Shown in pieces: positions 15,391 to 64,000 of a stretch of DNA of 64,000 nucleotides; the first letter of the stretch is position 1, and the number at the start of each line of letters is the position of its first letter. Source of the stretch: a bacterium 0.1xD8-71 (GTDB lineage: Bacteria > Bacillota > Clostridia > Lachnospirales > Lachnospiraceae); NCBI GenBank assembly GCA_003612405.1, contig RAYR01000003.1, positions 1 through 64,000 of the forward strand, given 5' to 3'. Both the position numbers and the translations under genes were made by a program. Under the pieces are notes generated by a model, which ran no database searches, was not told where the DNA came from, and saw only the letters and a program-made list of their open reading frames with translations.

Positions 15391-15434
15391 ATCTGTAATT
15401 GCTCCTTTGCTGCGTATATATTGAAATCTATATT

Positions 15435-15881: not shown

Positions 15882-15986
15882 ATGACAGGTATCCTTTCTA
15901 CAATGAATGTTTCCATGACCCGTTTTGGATTGTAAACGGAAATCCTTTTTTGTAATTTTAAAATAGCATGCTTGGAAATGAATGTC

Positions 15987-16021
15987 AACAAAAATTTATT
16001 GAGTTTCGATAAATTTTTGTT
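15987..16021. repeat. 13-bp perfect inverted repeat between divergent genes
   Basis: AACAAAAATTTAT (15987-15999) and ATAAATTTTTGTT (16009-16021) are exact inverted repeats around a 9-nt loop. They lie between the divergent DUF2975 and ogt genes, just upstream of the ogt promoter. An operator for one or both genes is the simplest reading. Confidence 0.6.
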
Positions 16022-16044
16022 CCGGTGCAATAAGGAAGATTAGA

Positions 16045-16073
16045 TTTTCATTTGTATCCTGATATGTTATAAT
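16045..16073 (+). promoter_or_regulatory. Promoter for ogt (extended -10)
   Basis: TTTTCA (16045-16050), 17 bp, then TATAAT (16068-16073) preceded by TGT, giving an extended -10. It is about 40 bp before the ogt start. Confidence 0.65.
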
Positions 16074-16114
16074 GCGTTCAGCAGAAAATCTGTTATAAAT
16101 TTCGGAGGAATCAG

Positions 16115-16648
16115 ATGCAATACACATCTACCTATAAATCACCGCTGGGGAATATACTTCTTGCCGCTGACGAGACTGGCCTGATTGGACTATGGTTTTA
16201 TGGGCAGAAATATTTTGCTCGTAATCTCGATCCGGAACATGAAGAAAAAGACCTGCCGGTATTTGAGACAGCAGGAAAATGGCTGGATATTTATTTTTGC
16301 GGACACAAACCGGACTTTATGCCGCCTGTGCATCTGCTAGGCACGCCATTTCAAATCAGTGTCTGGAAATTATTACAACGGATTCCTTATGCGAAGACAA
16401 TAACATATGGGGAACTGGCCAAAGAAATTGCTCGGGAAAAAGGCCTTGCCCATATGTCTGCCCAGGCGGTAGGCGATGCGGTAGGACATAATCCGATTTC
16501 TGTCATTGTGCCCTGTCACCGCGTGGTAGGTTCCGGTGGCAGTCTGACAGGATATGCGGGAGGTCTGGATAAAAAGAAATGCCTTCTCTCCTTAGAAGGC
16601 GTGGATATGGGGAAATTGATTCTGCCTTCTAAGGGAACGGCATTATAG
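16115..16648 (+). CDS. ogt: Methylated-DNA--protein-cysteine methyltransferase
   Basis: Repairs O6-alkylguanine by transferring the alkyl group to its own cysteine. The active-site motif VIVPCHRVVG is present near residue 132, together with the helix-turn-helix segment (YGELAKEIAREKG) that inserts a finger into DNA. The length of 177 residues is normal for the Ogt type without the Ada N-terminal domain. GGAGG lies 7 bp before the ATG. It is monocistronic, facing a convergent lipoprotein gene 17 bp away. Confidence 0.93.
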   Translation: MQYTSTYKSPLGNILLAADETGLIGLWFYGQKYFARNLDPEHEEKDLPVFETAGKWLDIYFCGHKPDFMPPVHLLGTPFQISVWKLLQRIPYAKTITYGELAKEIAREKGLAHMSAQAVGDAVGHNPISVIVPCHRVVGSGGSLTGYAGGLDKKKCLLSLEGVDMGKLILPSKGTAL

Positions 16649-16665
16649 TTAATAAAGTGATATCT

Positions 16666-17109
16666 TTATTGAAAATATTGTGTAAGATATTCCATTGTAG
16701 TTTCAGATACCCGAAAAGATATTTTTACACCGGCTGTTTTTAATGTCAGATAAGGAATATCCTCATAGCAGAGTATTTCGCAAATGGTAGATATTTCTCT
16801 GTCAGATGCATCTTGTCCAAATTTGAGAGTTTCTTCCTGTGAAAATTGAAAAGTGCCGGTCAGTTTGGCTGTTTCAGGTAGGCTTTCCAGTTCCCAGTGT
16901 TCAATATCCAGTGCTGATATAAAGTCAGATATTTCTTGCTTTTCTGTCATTTTCTGTAAAATATCAGAAGTATCTGCTGAAATAGCGGTAATTTCCTGTG
17001 TCTTGGCAAGATCCGAATAATATTCAGATTCCTGTTCTTTTTCATTTACAGCATCACAACCGCAGAGAAAAAGTGCTGATAGTATGATTGTTAATATTAT
17101 TTTTTTCAT
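16666..17109 (-). CDS. Small lipoprotein of unknown function
   Basis: 147 residues with a lipoprotein signal peptide: Lys-Lys start, a hydrophobic stretch, and lipobox LFLCGC giving a lipidated Cys at about residue 18. The mature part is acidic and ends in a segment that looks beta-rich (TLKTAGVKISFRVSETTMEYL). No family is recognised. It follows the membrane-tailed XRE gene by 46 bp on the same strand, suggesting co-transcription with that regulator. Confidence 0.7.
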   Translation of the reverse strand: MKKIILTIILSALFLCGCDAVNEKEQESEYYSDLAKTQEITAISADTSDILQKMTEKQEISDFISALDIEHWELESLPETAKLTGTFQFSQEETLKFGQDASDREISTICEILCYEDIPYLTLKTAGVKISFRVSETTMEYLTQYFQ

Positions 17110-17155
17110 GGTTTTCCTCCATTCTGATACATTTACGTGATAAGGCTATATAAAA

Positions 17156-17887
17156 TCAGCCTTCCATTTTGTTCATAATCAACAGCCGGTATGCTCGTGT
17201 AATACCAGACATATATACACATAGAAAAGCTCCCACACCAGCTAAGATGAATCCACAGGCCAGAATAATATTATCTAAAATATCAAACTCCGCAGGAACG
17301 ATAAGCGGGCAGAGTAAAAAGCCGACAGCAATCAGGGCAATTCCGATAAGGTTAGAAATGTGTATGAATTTCTTTTTATCGGCGTAAGCCGAAACCAGTT
17401 CAGATTTGACAGTTTTGTCAAAGAATAAGGGTTCTTTCCATAATTTGTGGTAAGGATTATCTGCAAGTTTTACAGAAAACAATAAGATAATTCCTATGAT
17501 CACAAAAATCATGAACAGGATCATGTTGATTTCGACAGCCCAGAAGCTAAGGGATAAGCTTGCAATCATAAAACCGATTGCGGTACTGGTTTTCAACATT
17601 TTTCTTTTCTGATAGGAAAGAAACCCTTCCGCCATTTCACGGCTGACGTATAATCCCTTTTCATGTAAGTTATTTTCTGGCTTGGGTGTATCTTCTTCCC
17701 CCAGAAGGTAGTCTATCGTTACCTGAAACATTTTGCTCATACGCACAATTTTTTCGGTTTCCGGATAGCCGTTGTCTCGTTCCCATTTACTGACAGCCTG
17801 TCTTGATACATTTAGCTGATCTGCAAGTTCTTCCTGAGATAGACCGGATTCTTTTCTTAATTTTTGTAGTTTTTCCCCAAATGTCAT
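17156..17887 (-). CDS. XRE-family regulator with membrane segments
   Basis: Residues 1-65 form a Cro/C1-type HTH (QEELADQLNVSRQAVSKWERDNGYPETEK). After a linker come about four hydrophobic segments (roughly 100-118, 122-140, 180-200 and 208-230). It is a paralogue of the regulator at 9442-10380, and the two share an upstream DNA dyad. GGAGG lies 7 bp before its ATG. The lipoprotein gene downstream may be its partner or target. The signal it responds to is unknown. Confidence 0.85.
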   Translation of the reverse strand: MTFGEKLQKLRKESGLSQEELADQLNVSRQAVSKWERDNGYPETEKIVRMSKMFQVTIDYLLGEEDTPKPENNLHEKGLYVSREMAEGFLSYQKRKMLKTSTAIGFMIASLSLSFWAVEINMILFMIFVIIGIILLFSVKLADNPYHKLWKEPLFFDKTVKSELVSAYADKKKFIHISNLIGIALIAVGFLLCPLIVPAEFDILDNIILACGFILAGVGAFLCVYMSGITRAYRLLIMNKMEG

Positions 17888-17959
17888 ATTGTGTTCCTCC
17901 TTCTGATGTCAGTTTATCTTTTTGGATGGCAGCAGGCTACCAAAATACGGTTTCTATTA

Positions 17960-18000
17960 CGCAACTTCAGGTTGCAACCAGATGTTGCGGGTATTTTTTG
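17960..18000. promoter_or_regulatory. Shared dyad element upstream of XRE gene (copy B)
   Basis: The perfect palindrome GGTTGCAACC (17970-17979) is flanked symmetrically by CGCAAC (17960-17965) and GTTGCG (17984-17989), forming a 30-bp interrupted dyad, then a T-rich run. TCAGGTTGCA, the CC and TGCGGGT match copy A at 10525. It lies between the divergent XRE gene and mutM. Confidence 0.5.
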
Positions 18001-18049
18001 CTTATCTATGTTATGATATATAATAACATACAGAAAGAGGATTGAAACC

Positions 18050-18895
18050 ATGCCGGAACTGCCAGAAGTGGAAACAATCAAAAGAGTTTTGGAGCCGCAA
18101 CTCAAAGGACTTACCATTACAAAGGTAACAGTAAACCGTCCGGAAGTAATTGCCCGTCCTGCAGCGGATGAGTTTTGCAGATTATTGATCGGTCAGAGTG
18201 TATCGGGAATGATGCGCAGGGGGAAGTTTTTACATATTTTGTTAGACAGTGGAGACCGCGTTATATTGCATTTACGGATGACGGGCTGTCTGTTATTTAC
18301 GCCGGCTGATTTTCCGGAAGAAAAGCATACGCATATTGTTCTGGAAATGAGTGACGGCAGGCAGCTGCGTTTTTCGGATATGCGGCGTTTTGGGCGTTTC
18401 TGGCTGCTTCAGAATGGAGAAGAAGATACATACAGCGGGATTGCAAAACTTGGGATGGAGCCTTTTGACGAAGGACTGACTGCCGATTATCTGATCAGCC
18501 GTCTGGGAAAACGTAAGAAAACAATTAAAGAATGTCTGTTAGATCAGAGTGTTGTCGCAGGTATCGGCAATATTTATTCCGATGAGATATTATTTGCGGC
18601 CGGCATCCATCCGGCGTGGACGGCGTGCAGTCTGCAACAGGAAGAATGGGAATGTCTTGTGCGGGTGATTCCAGAACGGTTATCTTATTTTATTGAAAGA
18701 AATGTGATTAGTCCGGAAGAATATCTGGAGACGAAAGGACAGGATTATCGGAATACACCATTTTTGCAGGTGTACGGGCATGGAGGGGAAGCCTGTCCGG
18801 TTTGTGGGAAAATGCTTTGCCGTATGGTCATAGGCGGCAGGAGCAGTGTGTATTGTGAGGGGTGTCAGAGGAAAGGCGGTATCGTAAAATCATAA
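18050..18895 (+). CDS. mutM: Formamidopyrimidine-DNA glycosylase (Fpg)
   Basis: Removes oxidised purines such as 8-oxoguanine and nicks the site. The mature N-terminal Pro2 and Glu3 nucleophile region (MPELPEVETI) is intact, as are the DNA-contacting segment QSVVAGIGNIYSDEILF and a C-terminal zinc finger with four cysteines (CPVCGKMLCR ... YCEGCQR). The length of 281 residues is typical. It is divergent from the XRE gene, sharing the intergenic dyad, and convergent with a lipoprotein gene. Confidence 0.96.
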   Translation: MPELPEVETIKRVLEPQLKGLTITKVTVNRPEVIARPAADEFCRLLIGQSVSGMMRRGKFLHILLDSGDRVILHLRMTGCLLFTPADFPEEKHTHIVLEMSDGRQLRFSDMRRFGRFWLLQNGEEDTYSGIAKLGMEPFDEGLTADYLISRLGKRKKTIKECLLDQSVVAGIGNIYSDEILFAAGIHPAWTACSLQQEEWECLVRVIPERLSYFIERNVISPEEYLETKGQDYRNTPFLQVYGHGGEACPVCGKMLCRMVIGGRSSVYCEGCQRKGGIVKS

Positions 18896-46230: not shown

Positions 46231-47394
46231 ATGAAGAGTAGATTGTATTATGCACTGTATTTTTTATATGTCATTGTTGTGGCTTTTGTACTATATTTGA
46301 ATGGGGTATTTACCGGGGAGGAGATTTCCCTTGTAAACCTTTCAATCAATATCGGTTTTCTGATTATTATCGGAATTGTCTTTATCATATCTTCCGTCAG
46401 CTTTGGCCGGCTTAACAGGGTTACTTATGAACTGGAAGATGTTATGTTCCGGTTACAGAAGGAATATAAGGAGGCCGACGGAAAGAATCTCTGGGCAAAG
46501 TATAAAGACAATACGAAAGTTTTTGAGGAAGAGGTCTTGCAGGATGCGTTTGATAAATACCGTCTGCGGGTAAAAGCCACAAGAACCAAGCGGGGAGCTG
46601 CATCATCCTGTGATCTGGGAGAGTATATCAATGAGGATCTTCTGGACAGAACAGGCATGAGTTTCTTTAATTCCGGCGTTTCCGGGATGCTTACGGGTCT
46701 GGGGATTTTAGGAACGTTTCTTGGTCTGTCCATGGGGTTGGGGGCTTTTACCGGGGATGATATTTTTTCGATTTCTGATAATGTGGGTTCCCTGCTTTCC
46801 GGCATGAAGGTAGCTTTCCACACTTCGGTATATGGCATCTTTTTCTCCCTGGTGTTTAATATTGCCTATCGAAGCATTATGGCGGATGCATATGAGACAT
46901 TGAACGAATTTCTGAATGTATTTCGTCAGACGGCGCAGCCGGCTTCTTTGAAAGAGGACGATAATGCGGCGACAATGCTGGTATATCAGGCGGGAATAGC
47001 AAATTCTTTAAAGCAGATGATGGAAATGATGAAGGGCAATGCAATGGAACAGACGGCAGGTGTGGAGCGTATTGTAGATAAGTTTACTACGCAGATGCAG
47101 TCTGCTCTGGATACGGACTTTAAGAAACTGGGGAATACTCTGAAGGCAGCAGGAGAATCGCAGGCAGCCAGTGCCGTCAATGCGGCGGAAATGGTGGAAG
47201 CGGTTACAGCCTTGGTGGAGGTAAACCGTAACGTGCAGGAGGCTCTTGCAAAAGTCATGGAAAGGCAGGAGGTATTTGCGGGACAGATTGAGGAGCAGAA
47301 GAAAATGCTAGCAGACACATGCAGTGATATGAGTGATGAGATCAGCAGCCAGATATATACCTTTGAGCAGATGAGGAATTTGTATGAAAAATAG
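46231..47394 (+). CDS. ZorA/MotA/ExbB-like ion-channel stator protein
   Basis: 387 residues. Two N-terminal helices (about 7-25 and 36-56), a cytoplasmic region, then the conserved MotA/TolQ pair (SGMLTGLGILGTFLGLSMGLGAF near residue 150, and MKVAFHTSVYGIFFSLVFNIAYRSI near 195). A long helical C-terminal tail (residues 230-387) follows, as in ZorA. With the MotB-like partner it should form a proton- or sodium-driven 5:2 stator. The tail is much shorter than in Zorya ZorA, and no ZorC/ZorD is nearby. The downstream gene overlaps by 11 bp. Confidence 0.88.
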   Translation: MKSRLYYALYFLYVIVVAFVLYLNGVFTGEEISLVNLSINIGFLIIIGIVFIISSVSFGRLNRVTYELEDVMFRLQKEYKEADGKNLWAKYKDNTKVFEEEVLQDAFDKYRLRVKATRTKRGAASSCDLGEYINEDLLDRTGMSFFNSGVSGMLTGLGILGTFLGLSMGLGAFTGDDIFSISDNVGSLLSGMKVAFHTSVYGIFFSLVFNIAYRSIMADAYETLNEFLNVFRQTAQPASLKEDDNAATMLVYQAGIANSLKQMMEMMKGNAMEQTAGVERIVDKFTTQMQSALDTDFKKLGNTLKAAGESQAASAVNAAEMVEAVTALVEVNRNVQEALAKVMERQEVFAGQIEEQKKMLADTCSDMSDEISSQIYTFEQMRNLYEK

Positions 47395-48286
47395 ACGAAG
47401 GAACAGGGAAGCTTTTGCAGAGCACAGCTATTGGCAATCCTATTCAGACATGATGGCGGCGCTTCTGTTGATTTTTATTCTGATGATAGCGATTACCCTT
47501 GCCATATACAGACAGAAAACGGATGATCTGGATAAGACAAGGCGGGAGCTCAGCACGGCACAGAGTGAACTGGATGCGACAATAGCGGATCTGGAGAAGT
47601 CCAATGAGGATCTGGCTTCTTCTCTGGCACAGTTGCAGCAGGCTTACGATCAGGCAGCACTGACACAGGAAGAACTGAACAATGCCTATCTGGAGATAGA
47701 AAACGCCAGACAGGAACTGACGACGACAAAACAGGAATTACAGGACATTGTGGGGATTCGTACAGATATTATCGGGGCGTTGCAGTCTGCGTTCAGTAAT
47801 TCCACGATGAAGGTGGATGCCCAGACAGGATCCATTACGTTTTCTTCAGATGTGCTTTTCCGTTATAACAGTTCTTTACTGACAGCGGACAGCAGGGACA
47901 CATTGCAAAACGTTATTCCCACATATCTGGATGTACTGCTTCAGGATCAGTTCCGCGATTATATTGCGGAAATCATTATTGAGGGACACACGGATACGGA
48001 CGGCGGTTACCAGAGCAACATGGAATTGTCTTACGAGCGTGCCAAGGCCGTGGCAGACTTCTGCCTGGACAAGAGAAACGGGCTTAGCGAGACAGAGATT
48101 GAACAGCTGCAAAAGATTCTTACCGTTAACGGAAAATCATGGAGCAATCCCATCTATCAGAAGGATGCTTTCGGTAACTCGACGGATGAGGTGGATATGC
48201 CGGCCTCCAGAAGGGTGGAGATTAAGTTCCGGTTGAAAGAAGATGAAATGATAGAGAAGATGGCAGGGATTCTGGAACAGGAGTAG
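47384..48286 (+). CDS. ZorB/MotB-like OmpA-domain stator partner
   Basis: 300 residues. A single N-terminal helix carries the expected ion-binding Asp22 (SYSDMMAALLLIFILMIAI). A heptad-type coiled coil follows (about residues 45-125, with repeated Leu/Glu spacing), then a C-terminal OmpA/MotB peptidoglycan-binding domain (IIEGHTDTDGGYQSNMELSYERAKAV, and ASRRVEIKF). The long coiled coil between helix and wall domain is larger than in typical MotB. Start overlaps the partner gene, so the two are co-translated. It ends 19 bp before the GH120 gene. Confidence 0.88.
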   Translation: MKNRRRNREAFAEHSYWQSYSDMMAALLLIFILMIAITLAIYRQKTDDLDKTRRELSTAQSELDATIADLEKSNEDLASSLAQLQQAYDQAALTQEELNNAYLEIENARQELTTTKQELQDIVGIRTDIIGALQSAFSNSTMKVDAQTGSITFSSDVLFRYNSSLLTADSRDTLQNVIPTYLDVLLQDQFRDYIAEIIIEGHTDTDGGYQSNMELSYERAKAVADFCLDKRNGLSETEIEQLQKILTVNGKSWSNPIYQKDAFGNSTDEVDMPASRRVEIKFRLKEDEMIEKMAGILEQE

Positions 48287-50692: not shown

Positions 50693-51349
50693 ATGGGAAA
50701 TTTATTCAATATTAACAGTGTTCTTTATCGGATACTTGCGAAGATAGGAAACCTGGTAATTTTAAATCTTCTTTTTCTTATTTGTTCCTTGCCGGTAGTT
50801 ACCATCGGAGCATCAAGTACGGCATTGTATACAGTTACGTTGAAAATGGCAAAAGATCGGGAAAATTATATTGTAAAAGATTTTTTATATGCTTTTAAAA
50901 AAAATTTCAGACAATCTACGATTATATGGGTGCTTTTGCTGTTTCTGGCGATTATCCTGCTTGTAGATGCCAATCTTTGCAATGCACTGGCAGGACCGGG
51001 GATTATTGTTCTGGCTGTCCTTATACGAATTTTTATGCTTATCTGGATTATGATTTTTACCTATGTATTTCCGGTTCTGGCAAAATTTAACAATACGGTC
51101 AAAGCTACGATGAAAAATGCGTTTGTAATGTCGGGTGTGCATTTATTTACCACAGTAGTAACAGTAGGAATGAACTGCCTTCCCTTTGCATTTCTGTATT
51201 TTTCTGAGAAAAATCTGATTTATATTGTTGGAATTTATACCGGAATAGGGTTTGCTGGAATTGCCTATCTCAACTCAACTTTGTTGAATCGTGTGTTCCA
51301 GAGATATATGGATGATATGGATGAGGAGGAGTCATTATGGGAACCATAA
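50693..51349 (+). CDS. YesL-like (DUF624) membrane protein
   Basis: 218 residues with five predicted helices. The start (NINSVLYRILAKIGNLVILNLLFLICSLPVVTIGAS is the characteristic region, given here by feature: Leu-rich helix then SLPVVTIGASSTALY) fits the DUF624/YesL family. These proteins accompany YesM/N- or YesS-type regulators and carbohydrate ABC importers, but their role is unknown. It is the first gene of the large uptake locus, overlapping the MFS gene by 13 bp. GGAGG precedes the ATG. Confidence 0.85.
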   Translation: MGNLFNINSVLYRILAKIGNLVILNLLFLICSLPVVTIGASSTALYTVTLKMAKDRENYIVKDFLYAFKKNFRQSTIIWVLLLFLAIILLVDANLCNALAGPGIIVLAVLIRIFMLIWIMIFTYVFPVLAKFNNTVKATMKNAFVMSGVHLFTTVVTVGMNCLPFAFLYFSEKNLIYIVGIYTGIGFAGIAYLNSTLLNRVFQRYMDDMDEEESLWEP

Positions 51350-52746
51350 AACTTCGGATTCAGTTTTTGATAGGAAAGTTACGGCGGATTTTCTTTATGG
51401 CATTGCCGGAAAATGAAAAAGATTATCAAAAGAGCAGAAAACTGTACATTGTGAGTGATACGGCTTCCCAGATGTTATCCGGTTTTGCGGGTGGAGTGTT
51501 TCTGGTAACTTTGATGTCTTCTGTGGGGATAACCGAGGGAAATATTGGAATTATTCTGTCAATGGGAGAATTATCATCATTTTTCCAATTGATCACCATG
51601 AATTATATACAACATCTATTGAAGTTTAAGTTGTTCATATGTATGGCAACTCTGCAAAAGGTATGGTTTGCCTTTATCTACTTTATTCCTTTTTTTTCAT
51701 GGCCCAATTCCATAAAGGCAGTTGTTTTAATGTTATGTTATTTTACCGCCAATATTTGTATACGGCTAGGTACACCTCCTACGAATGATTGGCTGGCAGA
51801 TTTGGTTCCATCGAATGTCAGAGGCAGGTTTTTTGCAAGAAAAGAAGGCATTGCTGTGTTTTTCTCCGTTCTGGTATCCCTGATTATGGGGATTATGCTG
51901 GATTATTACAAAAATACCAGATTATTGCAGGGCTTTGTTATTACCGGAACTGTCATTTTATTCCTGGCTATTGTGAATGTGGTTTCTATTATTATGATGA
52001 AGGAGCCCAAAACAGGACCTTTAAATGAACAGGGAAAAGAAATTCATGGCAGACTGGCAAAAAGGCTGGTACAGGAACAAATAGAAAAATGCAGCGTTTT
52101 TGAGGAGCTCAAACAAGCATTTCACGATGTTTCCTTTTTAAAGATTCTTATATTGAATTGTATGTGGATGACAGCATATTTTGTTGCCATGCCCTTTAAT
52201 TTTAGTTATCAGTTAAATGAACTGAAGCTCTCCTATACATATATTACTGTCATTGGCTTTGGATGCAGCCTGCTGCGTATCTTTATCACGCCAACTGTGG
52301 GAAAAGAAGCTGACAAGGCGGGCATGGCGAAAACTGTGGAAAGAGGAATGATACTGGTTGCAATTCACTATTTGGTCATGGTTTTTGCGAAAGCATCCAA
52401 TGGATATATCACATATACACTTGCCACTATTTTCTCCTGTTGTGCATGGGCATATACAGGAATTGGCTTTTTAGGGATTCAGTTAGAGTTTTTTGATAAA
52501 GAAAAAAGAGTGTTGTTGTTTTCTTTGTTCTCTGCAATCTCAGGTCTCTATGGTTTTCTGGTATCCTTTGTTACTGGAAAATTATTGGACTGGATTCAGA
52601 AAAAGGATATTTTCATAGGAAATGTACCGATATGTGCACAACAAATAACAAATTTCATGGGTTTTTGTGCAACGGTGGGAATCATTCTTTATATCAGAAC
52701 GATGCTGGAAAAGAAAGATTTCAGAACCCCATTACAAAAATTTTAA
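51337..52746 (+). CDS. MFS transporter
   Basis: 469 residues with 12 predicted helices and an MFS-like loop (VPSNVRGRFFARKEG after helix 4-5). A hydrophilic N-terminus of about 45 residues precedes the first helix, and a longer central loop separates the halves. Members of this type transport sugars, oligosaccharides or related products. It is translationally coupled to the DUF624 gene, GAGGAGG upstream. An exporter for a pathway product or a second importer are both possible. Confidence 0.85.
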   Translation: MGTIKLRIQFLIGKLRRIFFMALPENEKDYQKSRKLYIVSDTASQMLSGFAGGVFLVTLMSSVGITEGNIGIILSMGELSSFFQLITMNYIQHLLKFKLFICMATLQKVWFAFIYFIPFFSWPNSIKAVVLMLCYFTANICIRLGTPPTNDWLADLVPSNVRGRFFARKEGIAVFFSVLVSLIMGIMLDYYKNTRLLQGFVITGTVILFLAIVNVVSIIMMKEPKTGPLNEQGKEIHGRLAKRLVQEQIEKCSVFEELKQAFHDVSFLKILILNCMWMTAYFVAMPFNFSYQLNELKLSYTYITVIGFGCSLLRIFITPTVGKEADKAGMAKTVERGMILVAIHYLVMVFAKASNGYITYTLATIFSCCAWAYTGIGFLGIQLEFFDKEKRVLLFSLFSAISGLYGFLVSFVTGKLLDWIQKKDIFIGNVPICAQQITNFMGFCATVGIILYIRTMLEKKDFRTPLQKF

Positions 52747-52879
52747 AAATTTTCACATTTTTCAAAGAACATTTTGTAACCAGATTCTTAAATTTTAAAG
52801 ATTTCTTCCAATTCTGTTTGGTTCACAAGATGACTGTACTTACGGATAATAGACTTATCAAGTGCAGGAGGTGAAAAAA

Positions 52880-53848
52880 GTGTCACAAGCCATAAAGAAG
52901 GTTACAAAACCACAAAAAAGAGTAAGTTTTCTGTCTGACATAAAAAGAAACAATTTCTCTTATATGATTGCACTTCCGGCAATTATATATATGTTTATCT
53001 TCAGTTATATGGCGTATCCATACTTACTGTTGGCATTTCAGAGGTATGATTATCGGAACAATACAATCAAGGATATCATTTTTCATGGAAATTGGGTTGG
53101 ATTAGATAATTTCAAATTTTTCTTTTCCTCACAGAATGTATTCAGAGTTACCTATAATACACTTTTCCTAAATATTTTATTTATTATTACCGGAACTGTA
53201 ATGTCTGTATTATTGGCGCTACTCTTAAACGAATTAAGATGCAAATGGTTTATTAAATCTACACAGTCTATTATGTTGTTTCCGAATTACATTTCCTGGA
53301 TTATGGTAAGTTATATTTTATTAAGTCTGTTTTCTACTGAATATGGTATTGCAAATCAGATGCTGACAGCACTGGGAAAAAATCCGGTTAACTGGTATGC
53401 GGAGCCTAAGATCTGGCCGGCAATCCTCGTTATTATGAGAATATGGAAAGGGGCAGGAATGAATGCGATTATCTATCTTGCTGCGATAACAGGTATGGAT
53501 TCCTCCTTAAATGAGGCTGCGGCAATTGATGGTGCAAACCGCTTTCAGATTATGACAAAAATAACATTACCCCTTATTACACCAACCATTGTGGTTATGA
53601 CACTTCTTTCTTTAGGGAAAATTATGTATGGCGATTTTGGAATGATTTATGCGCTGGTTGGTGATAATGGTTTGTTATATTCCACAACAGATATTATTGA
53701 TACTTATGTGTTCAGAGCCCTGCGTCAGGTTGGAGATGTTTCCCAATCAACAGCGATTGGTTTATTTCAGTCTGTCATTGGTTTTGTTATGGTATATGGT
53801 TCTAACTGGCTTGCACGCAAGTTTTATCCGGATGGAGCTTTATATTAG
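52880..53848 (+). CDS. Sugar ABC transporter permease (LplB type)
   Basis: 322 residues from GTG 52880 (AGGAGG upstream); the frame's earlier GTG at 52862 lacks a site. Six membrane helices, N-terminal cytoplasmic tail, and the EAA loop EAAAIDGANRFQIMTKITLPLI that contacts the ATPase. This is the first of two inner-membrane permeases of a type-1 carbohydrate importer. No ATP-binding protein is encoded nearby; such systems usually share an MsmX/UgpC-like ATPase encoded elsewhere. Confidence 0.93.
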   Translation: MSQAIKKVTKPQKRVSFLSDIKRNNFSYMIALPAIIYMFIFSYMAYPYLLLAFQRYDYRNNTIKDIIFHGNWVGLDNFKFFFSSQNVFRVTYNTLFLNILFIITGTVMSVLLALLLNELRCKWFIKSTQSIMLFPNYISWIMVSYILLSLFSTEYGIANQMLTALGKNPVNWYAEPKIWPAILVIMRIWKGAGMNAIIYLAAITGMDSSLNEAAAIDGANRFQIMTKITLPLITPTIVVMTLLSLGKIMYGDFGMIYALVGDNGLLYSTTDIIDTYVFRALRQVGDVSQSTAIGLFQSVIGFVMVYGSNWLARKFYPDGALY

Positions 53849-53859: not shown

Positions 53860-54732
53860 ATGAAAAAATATTCCTGGGCGAATTTCTTTATTGGTTTGTT
53901 TATCTTACTTTTTACGCTTGTATGTTTTTTGCCAATGCTATTGACAGTCATTGTTTCTTTTACTGATGAAATGACCATTATGCAGAATGGATACAGTTTT
54001 TTTCCGGAAAAGTGGTCTTTATACGCATATAGCTTAATCTTTAAAGGAGGCTCCAGTGTAGTACGAGGTTATATGGTTTCTGTTGTTGTTACTGTTATAG
54101 GTACAGTATTGGCAATTGTGATTACAGGTCTGACGGGATATACATTGGCAAATAAAAATGTTTATTACAGAGGGGCGTTGGGGCTTTATTTCTTTATCCC
54201 CATGGTGTTTGGTTCCGGTATTGTACCGTGGTATTTGATTTGTACAGCATTACACCTTCGTAACAATATTTTTGCGCTGATTGTACCGAATCTGCTGTTC
54301 AATGTGTTTAATATGTTTTTGGTACGAAACTTTATGAGCGGGCTTCCGGATTCGCTTCGAGAGTCAGCTACTATAGATGGTGCCAATGATATGATTATTG
54401 CCCTGAAGATTTATTTTCCGTTAGCACTTCCCGTTTTGGCAACGGTTGGTTTATTTTACGCATTGGGATATTGGAATGACTGGTGGAATGCAATTATGCT
54501 GGTAGAGGATAAAAACCTTTATCCTGTGCAGTACCTGCTTTTACAGTTGAAATCACAGATTAGTATGATTCGGGATTTGCAGCTTGCAAGCGGAGCAGCA
54601 ATTCAGACACCGCCTTCAGAATCTTTAAAGATGGCAACAAGTGTAATTACAGTAGGACCAATTGTACTGCTTTATCCATTTCTTCAGAAATATTATGTAA
54701 AAGGTATGGTTGTAGGGTCCGTAAAGGGCTAA
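53860..54732 (+). CDS. Sugar ABC transporter permease (YtcP type)
   Basis: 290 residues with six helices. The EAA loop reads ESATIDGANDMIIALKIYFPLALPVLATVG. The C-terminus MVVGSVKG is typical of YtcP-like permeases. It pairs with the LplB-type permease 11 bp upstream and the binding protein downstream, forming the membrane part of one glycoside importer. AGGAGG lies upstream. Confidence 0.93.
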   Translation: MKKYSWANFFIGLFILLFTLVCFLPMLLTVIVSFTDEMTIMQNGYSFFPEKWSLYAYSLIFKGGSSVVRGYMVSVVVTVIGTVLAIVITGLTGYTLANKNVYYRGALGLYFFIPMVFGSGIVPWYLICTALHLRNNIFALIVPNLLFNVFNMFLVRNFMSGLPDSLRESATIDGANDMIIALKIYFPLALPVLATVGLFYALGYWNDWWNAIMLVEDKNLYPVQYLLLQLKSQISMIRDLQLASGAAIQTPPSESLKMATSVITVGPIVLLYPFLQKYYVKGMVVGSVKG

Positions 54733-54761: not shown

Positions 54762-56312
54762 ATGAAAAAGACAACAAAGAGGATGGCAGCAATTATAATG
54801 ACATTTGCGATGATGGCAACATTATTTGCTGGCTGTGGAAAAGGAGAAAATGCAACAACAGCGGCTGGTGAGACTCCGGCAGCTGACAGTTCTGTAGAGA
54901 ACACCGGAGCAGCCACGGAAGAAACAGTTGAATGTCTGTATGTGGTTCCCGGGGATGAGCCGTCTGACCTTGAGGCCGGACTTGCAGCTATTAATGCCAA
55001 GATGGCGGAGGATGGTGTGGGAGTGACCATAAAACTCCAGTATATTCCATGGGATGCGTGGGATCAGAAAATCAATTTGATGCTCTCCACAGGCGAAAAA
55101 TTTGATTTGTTCCAGGTTATGAATGACCGTGTTTCTCTGGCAAACTATGCTTCGCGTGGTGCACTGGCTGATATTTCAGAAGAGATGCAATTGTACGGTG
55201 AAAACATTTTAAAGGTAAATCCTGAAATTATGATGAAATCAGGGCAGGTAAAAGGTGTGCAGTATGCAATTCCTGCATACTGGGTTGAAAGTGCTATTGA
55301 TCCTGAAATCTTTATCAGAAAAGATATTATGGAGAAATACGGAATTACAGAAGTTCCTACTACCTGGGAAGAACTTACTACAGCATATGAAACTGTTATG
55401 AAAAATTGGGAAGGCGCTCAGAAGCCACATCTCTTGATGACTGGAAATAATACATCAAGATTTGCCTATGCAGCAAAAACTTATGATGAATGGCCATTTG
55501 TAATTTATGACAGAGTTTTTTATGTAGATCAAGAGGGTAATGTAGAAAATTATTTTGCAACAGAAGTATTTAAACAGGATTGTGAACATGCAAGAGAGTG
55601 GTATGAAAAAGGGCTCATCAACCCGGATGTAATGACTGTTACAAGCGAGCAGACAGATGCACGTAATCAGGCCGGTAACTACTTCCTTGGAGCCTCCTCG
55701 AATATCGATACATTAAAACAGAACTATCCTGATATTGATGTAGATGATTGGATCAGAGTAGAACTTGCTCCGGACAAACCGGATATAAGACCTTATGGTA
55801 CAAGAAATATGAACGCAGTTCCTCTCTCCAGTGAACATCCGGAAGCAGCTGTTAAATTTGTAAACTGGGTATATGCAAGTCAGGAAAATTATGACTTGTT
55901 CATGTACGGCAGAGAAGGCATTGATTATGAGAAGGAAGAGCCTCATAACAGAATTGATATTATTAATGAGACCAATTTCCCGGGATATTATTTCAGCGAT
56001 TGGATGATGGGAAATGTAAATTACCTGCGTCCTACAACAGCGGGTCCTACTGAATATAATGAACGTTTATATACGGTAAATGAAAATGCAGTAGAAGGTT
56101 ATGCAGCGCAGTTTACCTTTGATGCTACACCTGTTCAGACAGAATATGCAGATGTGATGACTGTTATTTCCGAGTATATCAATCCGATGGCCTGTGGTGT
56201 GAAGGATTACGAGTCCAATATCGATGCGGCATTGGAACAGTTGGACAAAGCAGGTGTTTCAAAGCTAATTGAAGAATACAAGAGACAGCTTGAGGAAAGC
56301 AAAAATAATTAA
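54762..56312 (+). CDS. Extracellular sugar-binding lipoprotein
   Basis: 516 residues. Lipoprotein signal with lipobox LFAGC (Cys at about residue 25), a short Ala/Thr-rich linker, then a type-1 solute-binding protein of the large LplA class (IPWDAWDQKINLMLSTGEKFDL, VPTTWEEL...AY, and a C-terminal GGVKDYE-like linker). The ligand is unknown but should be an oligosaccharide or glycoside. Directly follows the two permeases, AGGAGG upstream; a terminator follows, so the sensor gene downstream is probably separate. Confidence 0.92.
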   Translation: MKKTTKRMAAIIMTFAMMATLFAGCGKGENATTAAGETPAADSSVENTGAATEETVECLYVVPGDEPSDLEAGLAAINAKMAEDGVGVTIKLQYIPWDAWDQKINLMLSTGEKFDLFQVMNDRVSLANYASRGALADISEEMQLYGENILKVNPEIMMKSGQVKGVQYAIPAYWVESAIDPEIFIRKDIMEKYGITEVPTTWEELTTAYETVMKNWEGAQKPHLLMTGNNTSRFAYAAKTYDEWPFVIYDRVFYVDQEGNVENYFATEVFKQDCEHAREWYEKGLINPDVMTVTSEQTDARNQAGNYFLGASSNIDTLKQNYPDIDVDDWIRVELAPDKPDIRPYGTRNMNAVPLSSEHPEAAVKFVNWVYASQENYDLFMYGREGIDYEKEEPHNRIDIINETNFPGYYFSDWMMGNVNYLRPTTAGPTEYNERLYTVNENAVEGYAAQFTFDATPVQTEYADVMTVISEYINPMACGVKDYESNIDAALEQLDKAGVSKLIEEYKRQLEESKNN

Positions 56313-58586: not shown

Positions 58587-60143
58587 ATGCATCAGACGAA
58601 AGAAAAAGCTTGCAAGGAGGGATTGGAAACTGTGAATGACAATTATCAATTTCCTGATTTGGAGGATATGAAAAAACTTCCGGAACTTTCGCTTCCGGAC
58701 TATCAGGAATTGAATAAGCGTTTTATAGAAGCCGTGCATGATCCGGCAAATAAAATATACAGAACCAATCCTCAAAACGGACATCCGATTTTTGGAGCCT
58801 ACACCTTGAGCAACTCTAATGAGATGGTGACATGGGGAATTTTGGCGATTGGGGAATGGCTGATGAATCGTGATACAAAATGGATTGCACCTACATATTT
58901 CGATTTTTATAGTCAGACACACAGGATATTTTTAAATTCTCCAGATGTGGACAAAGTCGAATACTGGTATCTGTTCTATGTAAATCTTCTTGCCGGGGCT
59001 GTTTACAGAACCTTATATGATGGAGAGGAAACTGCTAAGAATTACCTGATGGAAGCGGCGTCGTCCATGAAAAAGTTAGCGAAAAGCATCAACTACGATT
59101 TTTATGCCCAGGGATTTGACTTTACCACCTATCAATCCTTTACAAACAGAGATATCTTTTGTCAGCCGGATTCTATGGCGGGCTATGCATATCAGATGCT
59201 TTTTGCCAGTCAGATTCTTGAACAGCCAGATTGTCTGGAGGAAAGTGTAAACGCGATCAGAAGATATCAGGCTTATGAGAAAAATCCCTGGTATGAGATT
59301 CCCAATGGAAGCGCGGGCGTATTGGCGGCAGCCTGGCTTCAGGCGCATGGTTATGAAAATGATGTGGAAAAAACAGCTTTCTGGATATTTGACAATGAAA
59401 ACGGTCCCCTCCAGAAAGGGAACTGGGGAGATGAATGTGTAAACGGCCTGATGATGGGATGGCGCGGTGAGAGCAGAAAGGATGCCATGGATTCTGCCTA
59501 CAGCATGGAGAGCCTGATGCCGATGCAGCTTTTACTTCCTTCGGTACGTTATTGTCCTGCGCTGGCAGAAGCTGTTTCCAACTGGGTGCGCCATGTGATG
59601 TCTTCGTTCCAGTTATATTATGGACAAGGTAAAACAAAGCTGAAGGAAACCAGGCCGGAGTTATCTTCTGCCGTTCCCTATGAGAGATTGCAGCGGCTGG
59701 AAGGAGAAGAGAATCCGGTGGCCTGCGGCGACTTTGACGGGCACAGGTCTGTTTATGGCGCCGGATACCTGATGTGGCTGGATGCACTGGTACGAAATAC
59801 GGACAGAGAATGGATCTATGCATTGGACTTGTCTGTAACCGACTGGCTCAGCCGGAAGAACTGTCCGGTTTATTTGATTCAGAATCCTTTGGAGGAGGAA
59901 ATCACGGTACAATTTACAGCGGCAGATATCTGGAAGAAAAAAAGACCGGATTTATTTGAAAATGCATTTCTGGTATGGGAATTGCCTTCTGTACGAAAAT
60001 TAGGAATGTATGAAGAGAAAATTACGGTTACGCTGAAAGCGAAGGAATATAAATTCATGGCAATTTCAAAGGAAATGCCGCTGACAACCACGAATTTCAT
60101 CTGTGGAGCAGATGGAGAAGAGCTGTTATATACAGGGAGATAA
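58587..60143 (+). CDS. Unknown 518-residue protein of the uptake locus
   Basis: A soluble protein with AGGAGG upstream. It is rich in Trp, Tyr and aromatic-acidic segments (AYTLSNSNEMVTWGIL, GNWGDECVNGLMMGWRGESRKD, CGDFDGHRSVYGAGYL), with an all-helical pattern through residue ~430 and a beta-strand-rich final ~90 residues. This resembles an (alpha/alpha) toroid plus beta-sandwich layout of some glycoside hydrolases and lyases, but I recognise no family. No signal peptide. The next gene begins 4 bp after its stop codon, so it is co-transcribed with the GH130-like gene. Confidence 0.75.
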   Translation: MHQTKEKACKEGLETVNDNYQFPDLEDMKKLPELSLPDYQELNKRFIEAVHDPANKIYRTNPQNGHPIFGAYTLSNSNEMVTWGILAIGEWLMNRDTKWIAPTYFDFYSQTHRIFLNSPDVDKVEYWYLFYVNLLAGAVYRTLYDGEETAKNYLMEAASSMKKLAKSINYDFYAQGFDFTTYQSFTNRDIFCQPDSMAGYAYQMLFASQILEQPDCLEESVNAIRRYQAYEKNPWYEIPNGSAGVLAAAWLQAHGYENDVEKTAFWIFDNENGPLQKGNWGDECVNGLMMGWRGESRKDAMDSAYSMESLMPMQLLLPSVRYCPALAEAVSNWVRHVMSSFQLYYGQGKTKLKETRPELSSAVPYERLQRLEGEENPVACGDFDGHRSVYGAGYLMWLDALVRNTDREWIYALDLSVTDWLSRKNCPVYLIQNPLEEEITVQFTAADIWKKKRPDLFENAFLVWELPSVRKLGMYEEKITVTLKAKEYKFMAISKEMPLTTTNFICGADGEELLYTGR

Positions 60144-60147: not shown

Positions 60148-61218
60148 ATGGATAAAAAAATATTGCAAGAGAAAATGCGGGAAATCTATGAGAAAACTCT
60201 AGAAGAAAGCAGCAAAAAAAATGACGCAGATTATTCTATGGAATATTTCTTTGGACAGTACGGGAAATCACCGTCCTGGTGCATTGGACCAATGAAAAAG
60301 GATGAGTCTCTTACATTCCGGAAAAATGTACAGTGGAATGATCCTACAGAAACCGGTTGGAAATCAGGGTTTCTGTTTAATCCATCTGCTATTGAGAAAG
60401 ATGGAAAGCTATATTTGTTCTACCGGGCGGCTCCCAGGATGGAAACTTTGTGTTCACGTATTGGCCTTGCTGTATACACGGAGGAGAAAGGGTGGGAGGA
60501 CTATCAGAACAATCCGGTTGTTTTTCCTGTAGTGGAAGACGAAGTGTATGGTACAGAGGATCCTAAGGTCTATCAAATAAAGGATGACAGCTATATTTTA
60601 TTTTATAATGGTGTATCGCCGATTACAGAAGAGGTTCGCGCAGAGCTTACGGCAGAGGGCACAGAGGTTCCGTCTCTTGTCTGTACCGTAAAAGCCATGG
60701 TATCCAAGGACTTGCTTCATTGGGAGCGGGTGGGACAGATTGTTCCTACAGAAGTTTCCCGATACTGGGCAAAGGGTGCTGTAATTCCCAGAAATCCCCG
60801 GGGAGAGGCAGTGAAGATCAATGGTGAGTACTTAATGTATCTCAGTGAAGGCTGTGGCGGGAAGCAGGTAATAGGACATTCTGAGGATATGATTCACTGG
60901 ACTTTTGTACAGCAGGAATATTTAAAGATTGATGAACTGGGAAGTATCTGTGAGGTTGCCTGTGCTGTCGTGGATGATGAGAAAGACCAGAATACTTTGC
61001 TTCTGGATGTGTATTATCACACAAAAGAAGGAAAAAGGGCAGGGCTTCAGGCATTGTATTCGAGACAGCACCCATTTGAACAGCTGGAACTGAATTTCGG
61101 GGCAACCCTATGCTGGGGTGGTCTTTGGAAGTACCGGGGTAAATGGATGTGCGCACAGGGCTGGGACGCAGAGGAAGGAAACGAAGAAATCTATTTTTAC
61201 ACAACAGAGACAAAATAG
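60148..61218 (+). CDS. GH130-like five-bladed propeller protein
   Basis: 356 residues from ATG 60148 (GGGAG upstream). Propeller blade signatures resemble GH130 mannoside phosphorylases: FNPSAIEKDGKLYLFYRA, the acidic YGTEDPKVYQI, and the AKGAVIPRNPRG phosphate-side region. These enzymes split beta-mannosyl bonds with phosphate to give mannose-1-phosphate; some GH130 members are hydrolases. No signal peptide, so cytoplasmic. The substrate is not evident. The next gene (DUF1861) starts 11 bp later. Confidence 0.78.
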   Translation: MDKKILQEKMREIYEKTLEESSKKNDADYSMEYFFGQYGKSPSWCIGPMKKDESLTFRKNVQWNDPTETGWKSGFLFNPSAIEKDGKLYLFYRAAPRMETLCSRIGLAVYTEEKGWEDYQNNPVVFPVVEDEVYGTEDPKVYQIKDDSYILFYNGVSPITEEVRAELTAEGTEVPSLVCTVKAMVSKDLLHWERVGQIVPTEVSRYWAKGAVIPRNPRGEAVKINGEYLMYLSEGCGGKQVIGHSEDMIHWTFVQQEYLKIDELGSICEVACAVVDDEKDQNTLLLDVYYHTKEGKRAGLQALYSRQHPFEQLELNFGATLCWGGLWKYRGKWMCAQGWDAEEGNEEIYFYTTETK

Positions 61219-61229
61219 GAGGAATATAG

Positions 61230-62222
61230 ATGTCAATTCAGGAGAAAAAAGCAGAATTCGAGAAAAAAAGGCAGGAAAAGATTTATGAAAGCGTAAAGCT
61301 TACCTTTCATGGTGTGGAGGGGTTTGATGTATATAACTGTTCCATTCCTTTTAGCTGGGAAGGCAAGGAATACATCTATGGGCGTGTTGAAAAAAGAGAA
61401 GAGTGGGCTCGTTCCTGGGTACGGCTTTTTGAAAAAACAGGCAAGGATGAGTACACCGTTGTAAGGGAGCATATGATTTATCCACTGGAGGATCCTTATG
61501 TCAGTATTGTGCAGGGAGAACTTACTCTGGGAGGCACCCATGTAAGAAAAAGAAGCGGAGAAGTGGACAGCTTTTATGGTTATTTTTACCGCGGTAAAGA
61601 TATTGAGGATATGGTGTATTTTACAACGGGTCCTGATTTTATGAAGGATATCCGTCTGGTAGAGCTGGACAATGGAAAGGTTGGAGTATTTTCCAGACCC
61701 AGAAACAAGGAAATTGAAGAGAAATATGGAAGCAGCGCCATGATTGGTTTCGCTGTGATTGACAGTCTGGATGATCTTACGGATGAGGTTATTTTGAATG
61801 CGAAGCCCATTGAGGGTATCTTTGAAAAGGGTGAATGGGGAGGCTGCAATCAGGCATATCTTCTCACAAATGGAAACATTGGTATCATTGGGCATCAGAG
61901 CTTTTCGCAGCCATGTGAAAATGTTTCGGAAGAATCTGCTTCCAATGACTTTACCAAACCTAGCACGACCAGTCTGGATGTATACGTCAACATTGCCTTT
62001 GAGTTTAACCCGGAGACTTTTGAGGTTACGAATCGTAAGGTAATCGGAACCCGTTCATGTTATCCGGAAGGCCTGTCAAAACGGCCCAGTCTGGTTGATT
62101 GCACGTTTACCTCCGGCATTACGCTCCGGGAGGACGGTAAGGCCGATCTTTATGGTGGAATGAGCGATGTGGAAGAAGGAAGAATTACAATCGACTATCC
62201 ATTTTCCTGTCTGATAAAGTAA
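61230..62222 (+). CDS. DUF1861 propeller protein
   Basis: 330 residues, cytoplasmic, AGGAGG upstream. Regularly spaced blades typical of five-bladed propellers (WEGKEYIYGRVE, VSIVQGELTLGGTHVR, LDNGKVGVFSRPR, GGCNQAYLLTNGNIGIIGHQSF). The whole pattern fits DUF1861, a family related in fold to GH43/GH130 but without a proved function. Its place next to a GH130-like gene suggests a joint role in glycoside breakdown. Confidence 0.75.
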   Translation: MSIQEKKAEFEKKRQEKIYESVKLTFHGVEGFDVYNCSIPFSWEGKEYIYGRVEKREEWARSWVRLFEKTGKDEYTVVREHMIYPLEDPYVSIVQGELTLGGTHVRKRSGEVDSFYGYFYRGKDIEDMVYFTTGPDFMKDIRLVELDNGKVGVFSRPRNKEIEEKYGSSAMIGFAVIDSLDDLTDEVILNAKPIEGIFEKGEWGGCNQAYLLTNGNIGIIGHQSFSQPCENVSEESASNDFTKPSTTSLDVYVNIAFEFNPETFEVTNRKVIGTRSCYPEGLSKRPSLVDCTFTSGITLREDGKADLYGGMSDVEEGRITIDYPFSCLIK

Positions 62223-62279
62223 GACAGATATAGAAAGGTTTTCTTTTTCAGGTGCTGTCTTTAAGAGTGAGGTGCTGTT

Positions 62280-63128
62280 ATGGTGGAAACTACAGAAATA
62301 AGCGGAATGGTTAGTAATATACAGCGGTCAAGTATGCATGATGGGCCGGGAATCAGAAGTACTGTTTTTTTAAAGGGCTGCAATATGAACTGCCAATGGT
62401 GCCATAATCCGGAAACTATCAGCTTTTCTGAGGAATTACTCTTTTATCCGGACAAATGTATTCATTGCGGCTTATGTGAGCAGGGATGCTTTTCCGGGGC
62501 AAAGGTGCCTTGTGGGAGGAGGATGACAGCGACAGAGGTTCTTGAGGAAGTGCTGCTGGATGCAGCGTATTATCAAAATGGCGGAGGGATTACTGTTTCC
62601 GGTGGAGAACCCTGTTGCCAACCCCGGTTTACAAAGGAAATACTGTATCTGGCAAGGCTGGCGGGAGTGCATACGGCGATAGAGTCTAATTTAAATGTAT
62701 CCGTTGATGTTCTGTCAGAAGTGCTTACGGAAGCCGACCTGCTGATGTGTGATTGCAAGATTTTTGATGAAGAAAAACACAGGAAGTATACAGGGGTGTC
62801 TAATCGACAGATTCTTCAAAACCTGGAGTGGCTGTCGACCTTGAAAATTCCTGTCATCATCAGGACGCCGGTAATTGCAGCAGTCAATGATACACCGGAT
62901 GATATTCTTCCGATCGCAAAGCTGGCAGCGAATCTGCCGAATCTGCTGTATTATGAACTGCTCCCCTATCATGCTCTGGGACTTTCCAAAGGAACGGTAA
63001 ACAGTGAAAAAATCAAGTTTGACGCGCCTTCCAGGGAGACGCTTTATGCTCTGGCAGAAAGTGCGTTGCAGCAGGTAAAAGAGGTCTATATTGCTTCTAA
63101 AAAGTATAAGAAAACGGCAGAGAAGTAA
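62280..63128 (+). CDS. Glycyl-radical enzyme activating protein (radical SAM)
   Basis: 282 residues. Installs the glycyl radical on the enzyme encoded next. The radical-SAM cluster motif CNMNCQWC is Cys34, Cys38, Cys41, and GGGITVSGGEP near residue 102 binds SAM. The ferredoxin-like insert has one clear CX2CX2CX3C motif (Cys60, 63, 66 and 70) and one extra Cys78; the second motif found in most GRE activases is missing. The start ATG 62280 has only weak AGGTG, and AGGTGCTGT is repeated in the 57 bp before it. Confidence 0.92.
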   Translation: MVETTEISGMVSNIQRSSMHDGPGIRSTVFLKGCNMNCQWCHNPETISFSEELLFYPDKCIHCGLCEQGCFSGAKVPCGRRMTATEVLEEVLLDAAYYQNGGGITVSGGEPCCQPRFTKEILYLARLAGVHTAIESNLNVSVDVLSEVLTEADLLMCDCKIFDEEKHRKYTGVSNRQILQNLEWLSTLKIPVIIRTPVIAAVNDTPDDILPIAKLAANLPNLLYYELLPYHALGLSKGTVNSEKIKFDAPSRETLYALAESALQQVKEVYIASKKYKKTAEK

Positions 63129-63152
63129 CGCTGTGAAAGGTGGGTAGATTTC

Positions 63153-64000
63153 ATGGAAAAATTAAGTTATCCGGAACGTGTGAAGTTTTTACGGGAGAAG
63201 AAAATTGAGCATACCATAAAAAAGAAAGAACAGAACGGGTATATGGATGGGGACGATTATGGGACGGTTCCGTTGCCACCGGATTATGAATTTAAGCCTA
63301 TGTATTTTGCCGACAAGGATTTCTTTTTTGGGGATATTTCCTATGCGCTTAATTTCAAGCATTTTTTAGAGGGACATCCTCTTTATGTAGATCCACTGGA
63401 AATCATGTGTGGGCGGTGGGCAGATATGCTTCCTCATTATACGGGCAGGGATAAAGCCTATGACACAGTATATCCTTATGAGGAACTGAAACCGTTGCAG
63501 GAAAAGTATGACATTGTGAGTGGAATTGGTGCGGACGCGCATTTTGCCTGTGACTATTCCATTGGCTTACAGTTGGGATTTGGTGGACTTCTGGAAAAAA
63601 TCCGTCATTATAAAGCTATCAATCCCGAAAAGGAAGAGTTTTATCTGGCAGAGGAAATTACGGTACAGGCAATTATTGACTTTATTGGACGGCATATCGA
63701 GGAAATCAGACGCTGTCTGGAAAAGGAAACTCGTCCTGAACTGAAGGAAACCCTGGAAGAAATGCTGGAGGCAAATAAATCGGTTCAGTATGGAAAACCG
63801 GAGACCTTTTTGGAGGCCTGTCAGTGGATTGCCTGGTTTAATACGGTTTCCCGTATTTATGATAGAGACGGCGCAGGTTGTAATCTGGATATTCTTTTGT
63901 ATCCCTATTATGAGAAAGATATCCAAAAAGGTTTGCTGGATGACGAGAAGGCCACGTTTATCCTGGCAAATTTACTGTTGATTGATACCCACTATTATCA
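63153..64000 (+). CDS. Glycyl-radical enzyme, pyruvate formate-lyase-like (3' end outside window)
   Basis: The first 282 residues of a PFL-like enzyme, from ATG 63153 24 bp after the activase. The N-terminal part is unlike common dehydratase/PFL starts. HFACDYSIGLQLGFGGLLEKI (residues ~130-150) fits the family's conserved His-Asp region. Where many members have a GRxDQxLYP segment, this has GAGCNLDILLYP (from residue 240). The catalytic Cys and the glycyl loop lie beyond the window, so the reaction (lyase, dehydratase or decarboxylase) cannot be named. Genome context suggests a sugar-derived substrate. Confidence 0.9.
   Translation, partial: MEKLSYPERVKFLREKKIEHTIKKKEQNGYMDGDDYGTVPLPPDYEFKPMYFADKDFFFGDISYALNFKHFLEGHPLYVDPLEIMCGRWADMLPHYTGRDKAYDTVYPYEELKPLQEKYDIVSGIGADAHFACDYSIGLQLGFGGLLEKIRHYKAINPEKEEFYLAEEITVQAIIDFIGRHIEEIRRCLEKETRPELKETLEEMLEANKSVQYGKPETFLEACQWIAWFNTVSRIYDRDGAGCNLDILLYPYYEKDIQKGLLDDEKATFILANLLLIDTHYY

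Follow-up and report, generated by a model that had tools for sequence, protein, structure and literature searches.

What would a glycyl-radical enzyme (GRE) do among genes for the uptake and breakdown of a glycoside? The question is raised by the end of a 64,000-nt stretch of DNA (the window) from the Lachnospiraceae bacterium 0.1xD8-71 (contig RAYR01000003.1, positions 1 to 64,000), in which an initial annotation, made from the letters, placed a divergent GRE and its activase in one + strand run with an ABC sugar importer, an AraC-type membrane sensor, a GH130-like protein, a DUF1861 protein and a protein of 518 amino acids (aa). The list of open reading frames (ORFs) bears this arrangement out, each of the named genes being an intact frame on the + strand at the place proposed for it. 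The window holds only the first 282 codons of the GRE gene, and the full gene, encoding 718 aa, was recovered from the contig (C23; 68,876 bp), which supplies the remaining 436 codons followed by genes for a GNAT protein and a 728-aa protein.

The completed GRE is as divergent as had been supposed. It falls far below the curated cut-offs of the NCBIfam models for pyruvate formate-lyase (PFL), HypD, CutC, HpsG/HpfG, HPAD, IAD and PRK09983, with a best equivalog score of 207.6 bits against a cut-off of 1109. Its best match among solved GREs is PflD (279.5 bits), followed by PFL2 (261.6 bits), glycerol dehydratase (252.8 bits) and PFL (97.9 bits, over profile positions 515–709 only). In a tree of 93 rows with two PFLs as outgroup, the GRE belongs to a branch of 82 sequences with SH-aLRT support of 100 and a stem of 5.63; this was a quick tree that raised long-branch warnings and carried no bootstrap. 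The branch comprises the scan relatives longer than 600 aa together with the GREs of the window, Flammeovirga and genome G260, a split copy (L092) having been omitted for length. The relatives came from a contig scan of genomes that kept 80 of 99 GRE relatives. One of its two search patterns contains a Trp residue, so the scan favors Trp-bearing relatives; five clade members with the sequence GCHW, reachable only through the other pattern, also carry this Trp. Record labels assign most of the hosts to Bacillota and a single one to each of Lentisphaerota, Chloroflexota, Spirochaetota, Hydrogenedentota and Bacteroidota. GRE matches at E 1e-80 or better, which were not placed in the tree, occur in 28 of 391 genomes of the class including the window's own (27 of the 390 others), and a family sample gave matches at 1e-100 in 4 of 299 genomes, again with the own genome included. 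Placement in a known clade such as PFL or glycerol dehydratase had been named beforehand as one outcome that would overturn the proposal, and by its sequence this GRE is neither.

For a count of active-site residues, the 82 clade members were aligned by MAFFT with seven reference GREs. Cys373, Trp375, Glu382, Asp387, Arg234 and His130 are invariant (82 of 82), Arg238 and Trp573 are each found in 81 members and Trp342 in 80, and Gly694 is present in 80 members, the remaining two ending before that position. The clade motif is GC[NSH]W, in which Trp375 stands two residues after Cys373 (Cys+2). Five of the seven references (PflD, YbiW, CutC and two unnamed GREs) have Glu in this column and both PFLs have Ser, and at the positions aligned with Arg234, Arg238 and several of the Trp residues the references carry other residues. 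Because the Cys and Gly are present and a Trp occupies the Glu position, the alignment indicates that the radical residues are kept in this clade and that the standard Glu base is gone. The Trp and Arg residues at these positions suggest a ring-shaped, perhaps acidic, carbohydrate as substrate. PFL is likewise a member of the GRE superfamily without Glu at Cys+2, but assignment of the window GRE as a PFL was ruled out by the lack of the adjacent Cys–Cys pair and by the distant score.

Three observations concern other GRE genes. The GRE of Clostridia bacterium UC5.1-2E3 (L011, 8357–10507) is broken into two frames. In three loci (L062, 7058–12208; also L063 and L066) a GRE of a second type, with the sequence GCGEYV, immediately precedes an activase and GRE belonging to the Trp-bearing clade, and this adjacency suggests that the two types may work together. 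The window's own genome also has a PFL frame of 679 aa (L001, 1264–3303) that lacks the RVxG glycyl-radical motif; the radical domain expected at its C terminus may be absent or encoded separately.

Whether the neighboring genes belong with the GRE was judged from its relatives. The two nearest, in loci L013 (67% identical) and L014 (68% identical), group with the window GRE in the tree with support of 100. Within 10 kb of the GRE, both loci have importer permeases, a better-scoring GH130 gene, a GH130-like gene whose product is 46% identical to that of the window, and a gene of the 518-aa protein family. A gene of family GT108, to which the DUF1861 protein is related, lies within 10 kb in L014 and on another contig in the L013 genome. 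Gene order and strands in both loci differ from those of the window, and the persistence of the linkage despite these changes suggests that selection keeps it. A more distant GRE, 45% identical, is found on plasmid p1 of Flammeovirga kamogawensis in a run comprising SusC, SusD, a symporter, a sulfatase, a GH130 protein, a large opposite-strand gene, activase, GRE, a 136-aa protein and GH47; the GH130 gene is approximately 6 kb upstream of the GRE, beyond the single opposite-strand gene. The link between the GRE and GH130/GT108 genes is limited but real. The initial annotation had proposed to count how often GH130-like, DUF1861 and 518-family genes recur with the clade, and took freely varying neighbors as a refutation. 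Neighbor noise was rejected as an explanation for the nearest relatives but accepted for the wider clade, in which the neighbors do vary and the commonest partner is an oxidoreductase of the Gfo/Idh/MocA type and not GH130.

Homology clearly relates the DUF1861 protein to GT108. Its LEDPY sequence aligns with LEDPF of MPT-2, and the Asp of LEDP is kept; by our own count, and assuming a tag offset of 20, this is the residue altered in the D94N entry. According to passages of PMC8950772, the four characterized GT108 enzymes are dual glycosyltransferase-phosphorylases acting on beta-1,2-mannan and have a GH130 fold. GT108 matches above cut-off were found in 4 of 40 versus 5 of 200 genomes, with the own genome counted in both. 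The GH130-like protein clears the PF04041 cut-off (43.9 bits versus 26) over profile positions 20–199 of 320 and matches the NCBIfam models for beta-1,2-mannosidase and beta-1,2-mannobiose phosphorylase far under cut-off, a remote and partial resemblance; it has no match at E 1e-20 in the 390 other genomes of the class. A second GT108 gene of the window's genome (L117, contig stretch G000:C1:98001-118000; features at 6197–7153 and 14997–18129) adjoins genes for an ABC importer and an alpha-mannosidase of family GH38, and a different GRE (GCGEYV) with its activase lies about 8 kb from it, across an apparent two-component system.

The 518-aa protein has no significant family match in Pfam, NCBIfam or further scans. 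Six relatives could be aligned at 21–28% identity. The family is rare. A profile search at E 1e-10 finds it in 3 of 391 genomes of the class, and a search with the single protein at E 1e-5 finds it in 4 of 39 genomes, a set that covers 39 of the 80 loci and the window's genome; the own genome is counted in both rates, which stem from different queries. A GH130 gene directly follows the 518-family gene of L013 and the second 518-family copy carried by the L014 genome (L113), and in L014 a GT108 gene lies three genes before the 518-family gene. GT108 directly adjoins the 518-family gene in genomes G565 (L111) and G127 (L119), and in Paenibacillus S150 (L112) GH130 is one gene away from one of two 518-family copies. 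In genome G363 the gene is the last on an 8.8-kb contig that has neither a GT108 nor a GH130 match. We read the 518-aa protein as a putative enzyme of the same mannoside cassette. The Paenibacillus S150 group (L112, 4949–16460) lies on a different contig from the GRE and combines two 518-family genes with GT108, GH130 and genes for SASA and GDSL esterases.

Seven co-directional genes, from that for the 518-aa protein through that for the 728-aa protein, are tightly packed (Table 1). The successive gaps are 4 bases to the GH130-like gene, 11 to DUF1861, 57 to the activase, 24 to the GRE, −11 to GNAT and 11 to the last gene, a range of −11 to 57. The start of the GH130-like gene was set by choice at the ATG at 60148, the listed frame opening at 60103. 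A scan of 54499–68000 found terminator-like sites on the + strand only within operon genes and none between them. The counts in this region, 16 terminator-like sites versus 9.7 (standard deviation 3.1) in shuffled sequences and 32 promoter-like sites versus 29.6 (standard deviation 4.6), mean that the scan says little. The 728-aa protein was searched against Pfam, NCBIfam and PDB without a match. The GH120-like gene is a possible upstream member of the locus. Just upstream of it (46231–48286) is a pair of genes for MotA/TolQ-like and OmpA/MotB-like proteins that by inspection resembles ZorAB of Zorya. The activase has one auxiliary CxxCxxCxxxC motif; among 66 proteins of its cluster longer than 240 aa, 49 have one such motif, 15 have two and 2 have none. 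A dedicated radical S-adenosylmethionine (SAM) activase gene lies within 1.5 kb upstream of the GRE in 62 of the 73 clade loci for which upstream sequence exceeds 1.2 kb.

Table 1. Genes of the GRE locus and its surroundings. Positions are those of the window, and of the contig where a gene extends or lies beyond the window; values after family names are E-values unless given in bits.
Feature	Position	Strand	Basis
GH120-like right-handed beta-helix protein, 667 aa	48306..50309	+	PF21258 1.4e-39 (GH120 insertion domain), PF13229 5.9e-08
DUF624/YesL-like membrane protein	50693..51349	+	ORF; name by inspection
MFS-type transporter	51337..52746	+	ORF; name by inspection
ABC sugar permease 1	52862..53848	+	same cluster as L013 and L014 permeases
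ABC sugar permease 2	53860..54732	+	same cluster as L013 and L014 permeases
Solute-binding lipoprotein	54762..56312	+	PF01547 8.5e-20, PF12010 1.2e-16; lipoprotein by inspection
AraC-type sensor-regulator, 651 aa	56466..58421	+	PF12833 6.4e-19; membrane part by inspection
518-aa protein, rare unnamed family	58587..60143	+	no Pfam match
GH130-like enzyme	60148..61218	+	PF04041 2e-11
DUF1861, GT108-type mannosyltransferase/phosphorylase by homology	61230..62222	+	PF08950 7.1e-112; Leishmania MPT-4 7.6e-101
Radical SAM GRE activase	62280..63128	+	Radical_SAM 7.9e-17; TIGR02494 265 bits (cut-off 174)
GRE	63153..64000, on to contig base 65309	+	full protein: PF02901 (PFL-like) 1.9e-82, PF01228 (Gly_radical) 2.4e-15
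GNAT	65299–66513	+	contig beyond window
728-aa protein	66525–68711	+	contig beyond window

We tentatively favor a reading, to which we give somewhat less than an even chance, in which import and phosphorolysis of a beta-mannoside set free a moiety that the GRE then cleaves at a C–O bond, doing so without the Glu typical of such enzymes. The ABC transporter would import the beta-mannoside, the GH130-like and GT108 enzymes would release its mannosyl unit in the form of alpha-mannose 1-phosphate, and the same glycan would be acted on by the 518-aa protein. The activase would install a glycyl radical on Gly694, and a thiyl radical at Cys373 would abstract hydrogen from the freed carbohydrate, perhaps an unphosphorylated sugar, a sugar acid or an anhydro-sugar, so that the adjacent C–O bond breaks. 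Since Trp replaces the Glu base, deprotonation would fall to another residue, for which Asp387 and Glu382 are candidates, or would not be needed. Cleavage of C–O rather than C–C in the released sugar is favored because PflD, the best solved match, cleaves an anhydro-sugar phosphate, converting 1,5-anhydromannitol 6-phosphate to 1-deoxyfructose 6-phosphate according to passages of PMC12441222. PflD and YbiW, which act on the 6-phosphates of 1,5-anhydromannitol and 1,5-anhydroglucitol, resemble the window system in pairing a GRE with a radical SAM activase; PflD also has a sugar-derived substrate and shares with the window GRE Pro-Gly at +6 and +7 and Asp at +14 after the Cys. They differ in having Glu at Cys+2, where the window GRE has Trp, and in lying outside its branch, and pflD adjoins PTS and aldolase genes, whereas the window GRE adjoins an ABC importer and GH130/GT108 genes.

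Several observations weigh against this proposal. The lead of PflD over the other solved GREs is small, and PflD retains the Glu. The column of Glu382 is also Glu in the own-genome PFL and Asp387 is common to PflD, and therefore neither residue is special to the clade. The link to GH130 rests on three close relatives and one distant one, and as the Flammeovirga plasmid has two GH130 matches in 640 kb, the probability that one would fall within 7 kb of its GRE by accident is roughly 4%. The match of the GH130-like protein to PF04041 is weak and of partial length. Groups of 518-family and GT108/GH130 genes exist without a GRE on the stretch read, and no cluster member of GH130, the GH130-like protein or GT108 occurs in the 76 loci of the other four groups of the clade. 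Searches with the window's GH130-like and GT108 proteins and the Flammeovirga GH130 as queries likewise gave no match in those groups, and the neighborhoods of the two ungrouped loci (L076 and L092) have none of the three. Literature searches found no assays of any enzyme of the locus or clade.

The wider clade brings in an alternative. Gene counts were made by picking the longest ORFs and clustering them by BLAST. The resulting Gfo/Idh/MocA cluster, of which one member was checked by Pfam and eleven by profile search, is represented in 56 of 81 clade loci; because a Pfam-positive Gfo/Idh/MocA protein of L076 falls outside the cluster, this is a lower bound on that side. When genes were counted by position in the 80 loci whose GRE is not split, excluding GRE and activase genes, the cluster accounted for 128 of 264 genes within 5 kb upstream, 126 of these being on the same strand as the GRE. 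It accounted for 19 of 277 genes between 5 and 10 kb upstream and for 12 of 520 over 10 kb downstream. The clade might act on keto-sugars or uronates made by these oxidoreductases, which in many loci are encoded directly upstream; the ketone would replace the Glu base, either a C–O or a C–C bond would be cleaved, and the GRE of the window would have been adapted for use on a mannoside, for example Man-GlcA. The invariant Arg234 could bind a carboxylate, one group of nine loci carries genes for UxaC (2 of 9), UxuA (3 of 9) and a TRAP large subunit (6 of 9), and GH130 includes a Man-GlcA phosphorylase according to passages of PMC8950772. But the three loci of the window's own sub-clade have no member of the Gfo/Idh/MocA cluster, and the oxidoreductase could act either before or after the GRE. 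We consider this alternative unlikely, though it keeps a real share of the probability.

The same group of nine loci encodes a PMI-like protein in all nine and, in seven, a second cupin-looking protein that was recognized by inspection and has no Pfam match. In 19 other loci there is a TIM barrel protein closest to hydroxypyruvate isomerase, below cut-off. A Gfo/Idh/MocA protein that starts with GxxHxH instead of GxGxxG is encoded directly before the activase in L018 (8017–9132) and ten other loci; it is remote from solved members (best 1.1e-11). A small protein, encoded in six loci (among them L059, 12254–12661, and L101, 18152–18562), lies near the GRE in five of Bacillota and directly after it in Flammeovirga; the L059 protein is weakly cupin-like, below the Pfam cut-off. 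Glycosidases found in single loci diverge, being alpha-rhamnosidase-like and melibiase-like in L025 and MGH1-like in L076. A C-glycoside route built on the 136-aa cupin-like protein and the TIM barrel was rejected, the former being a weak cupin match below cut-off and the latter nearest to hydroxypyruvate isomerases and also below cut-off. For demethoxylation of 4-O-methyl-glucuronate, an idea prompted by the GH120-like and uronate genes, no direct evidence was found, and none of the literature matches listed was relevant.

The GRE could instead be an ordinary polyol or diol dehydratase of the glycerol dehydratase type that uses another acid–base residue and acts on an aglycone polyol or glycerate. 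Counted on the alignment, Trp375 corresponds to Glu435 of glycerol dehydratase, His130 to His164, Asp387 to Asp447 and Phe571 to Tyr640; we take all four glycerol dehydratase residues to have catalytic roles. The Cys and Gly loops and the His and Asp positions are retained, and in Paenibacillus S150 (L076) an MGH1-like glycosidase gene (PF22422, 4.4e-54) directly precedes the activase and GRE. However, the Glu of all five non-PFL references is Trp in 82 of 82 clade members, the Tyr640 position is Phe in the window GRE, Arg234, Arg238 and several Trp residues differ from the references, and the scores are far below the family cut-offs. We give such a dehydratase only a small chance. That the GRE sits in a mannoside operon merely for co-regulation under anaerobic sugar excess, with no biochemical link, is improbable: the very different neighbors of clade members and the GT108–GH130–518-family groups read without a GRE would suit it, but the GRE is inside one tight run, its linkage survives reordering in L013 and L014, and a GH130 gene is near the GRE in a Bacteroidota plasmid.

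PFL-like enzymes in clusters with GH130 and DUF1861 genes are not known to form a described pathway, as the initial annotation had remarked. The joint mention of glycyl radical and GH130 was found only through a reference list, and in PMC13027841, as far as the matched text goes, the term glycyl-radical enzyme appears alongside polysaccharide utilization in the references only. This GRE clade is not described in the titles and abstract starts of the literature matches listed, from which full texts and subscription journals may differ. We know of no printed account of anaerobic, non-hydrolytic radical sugar cleavage of this kind.

The loss of the Glu base implies either that another residue substitutes for it or that the reaction differs from the dehydratase type, and the sugar reaction carried out by the window GRE may be one not yet described. 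More speculatively, and with a probability well short of even, a widespread GRE branch would have lost the Glu base and gained an aromatic, Arg-containing site for radical cleavage of carbohydrate rings or glycosides, usually keto-sugars or uronates made by Gfo/Idh/MocA enzymes. The locus also places GT108 in a bacterial operon with an importer, the characterized GT108 phosphorylases being from Leishmania according to passages of PMC8950772. Because GRE matches at E 1e-80 or better occur in 27 of the 390 other class genomes and many scan records are herbivore-gut by title, a previously unrecognized radical step in the breakdown of carbohydrates would matter for fermentation in the herbivore gut.

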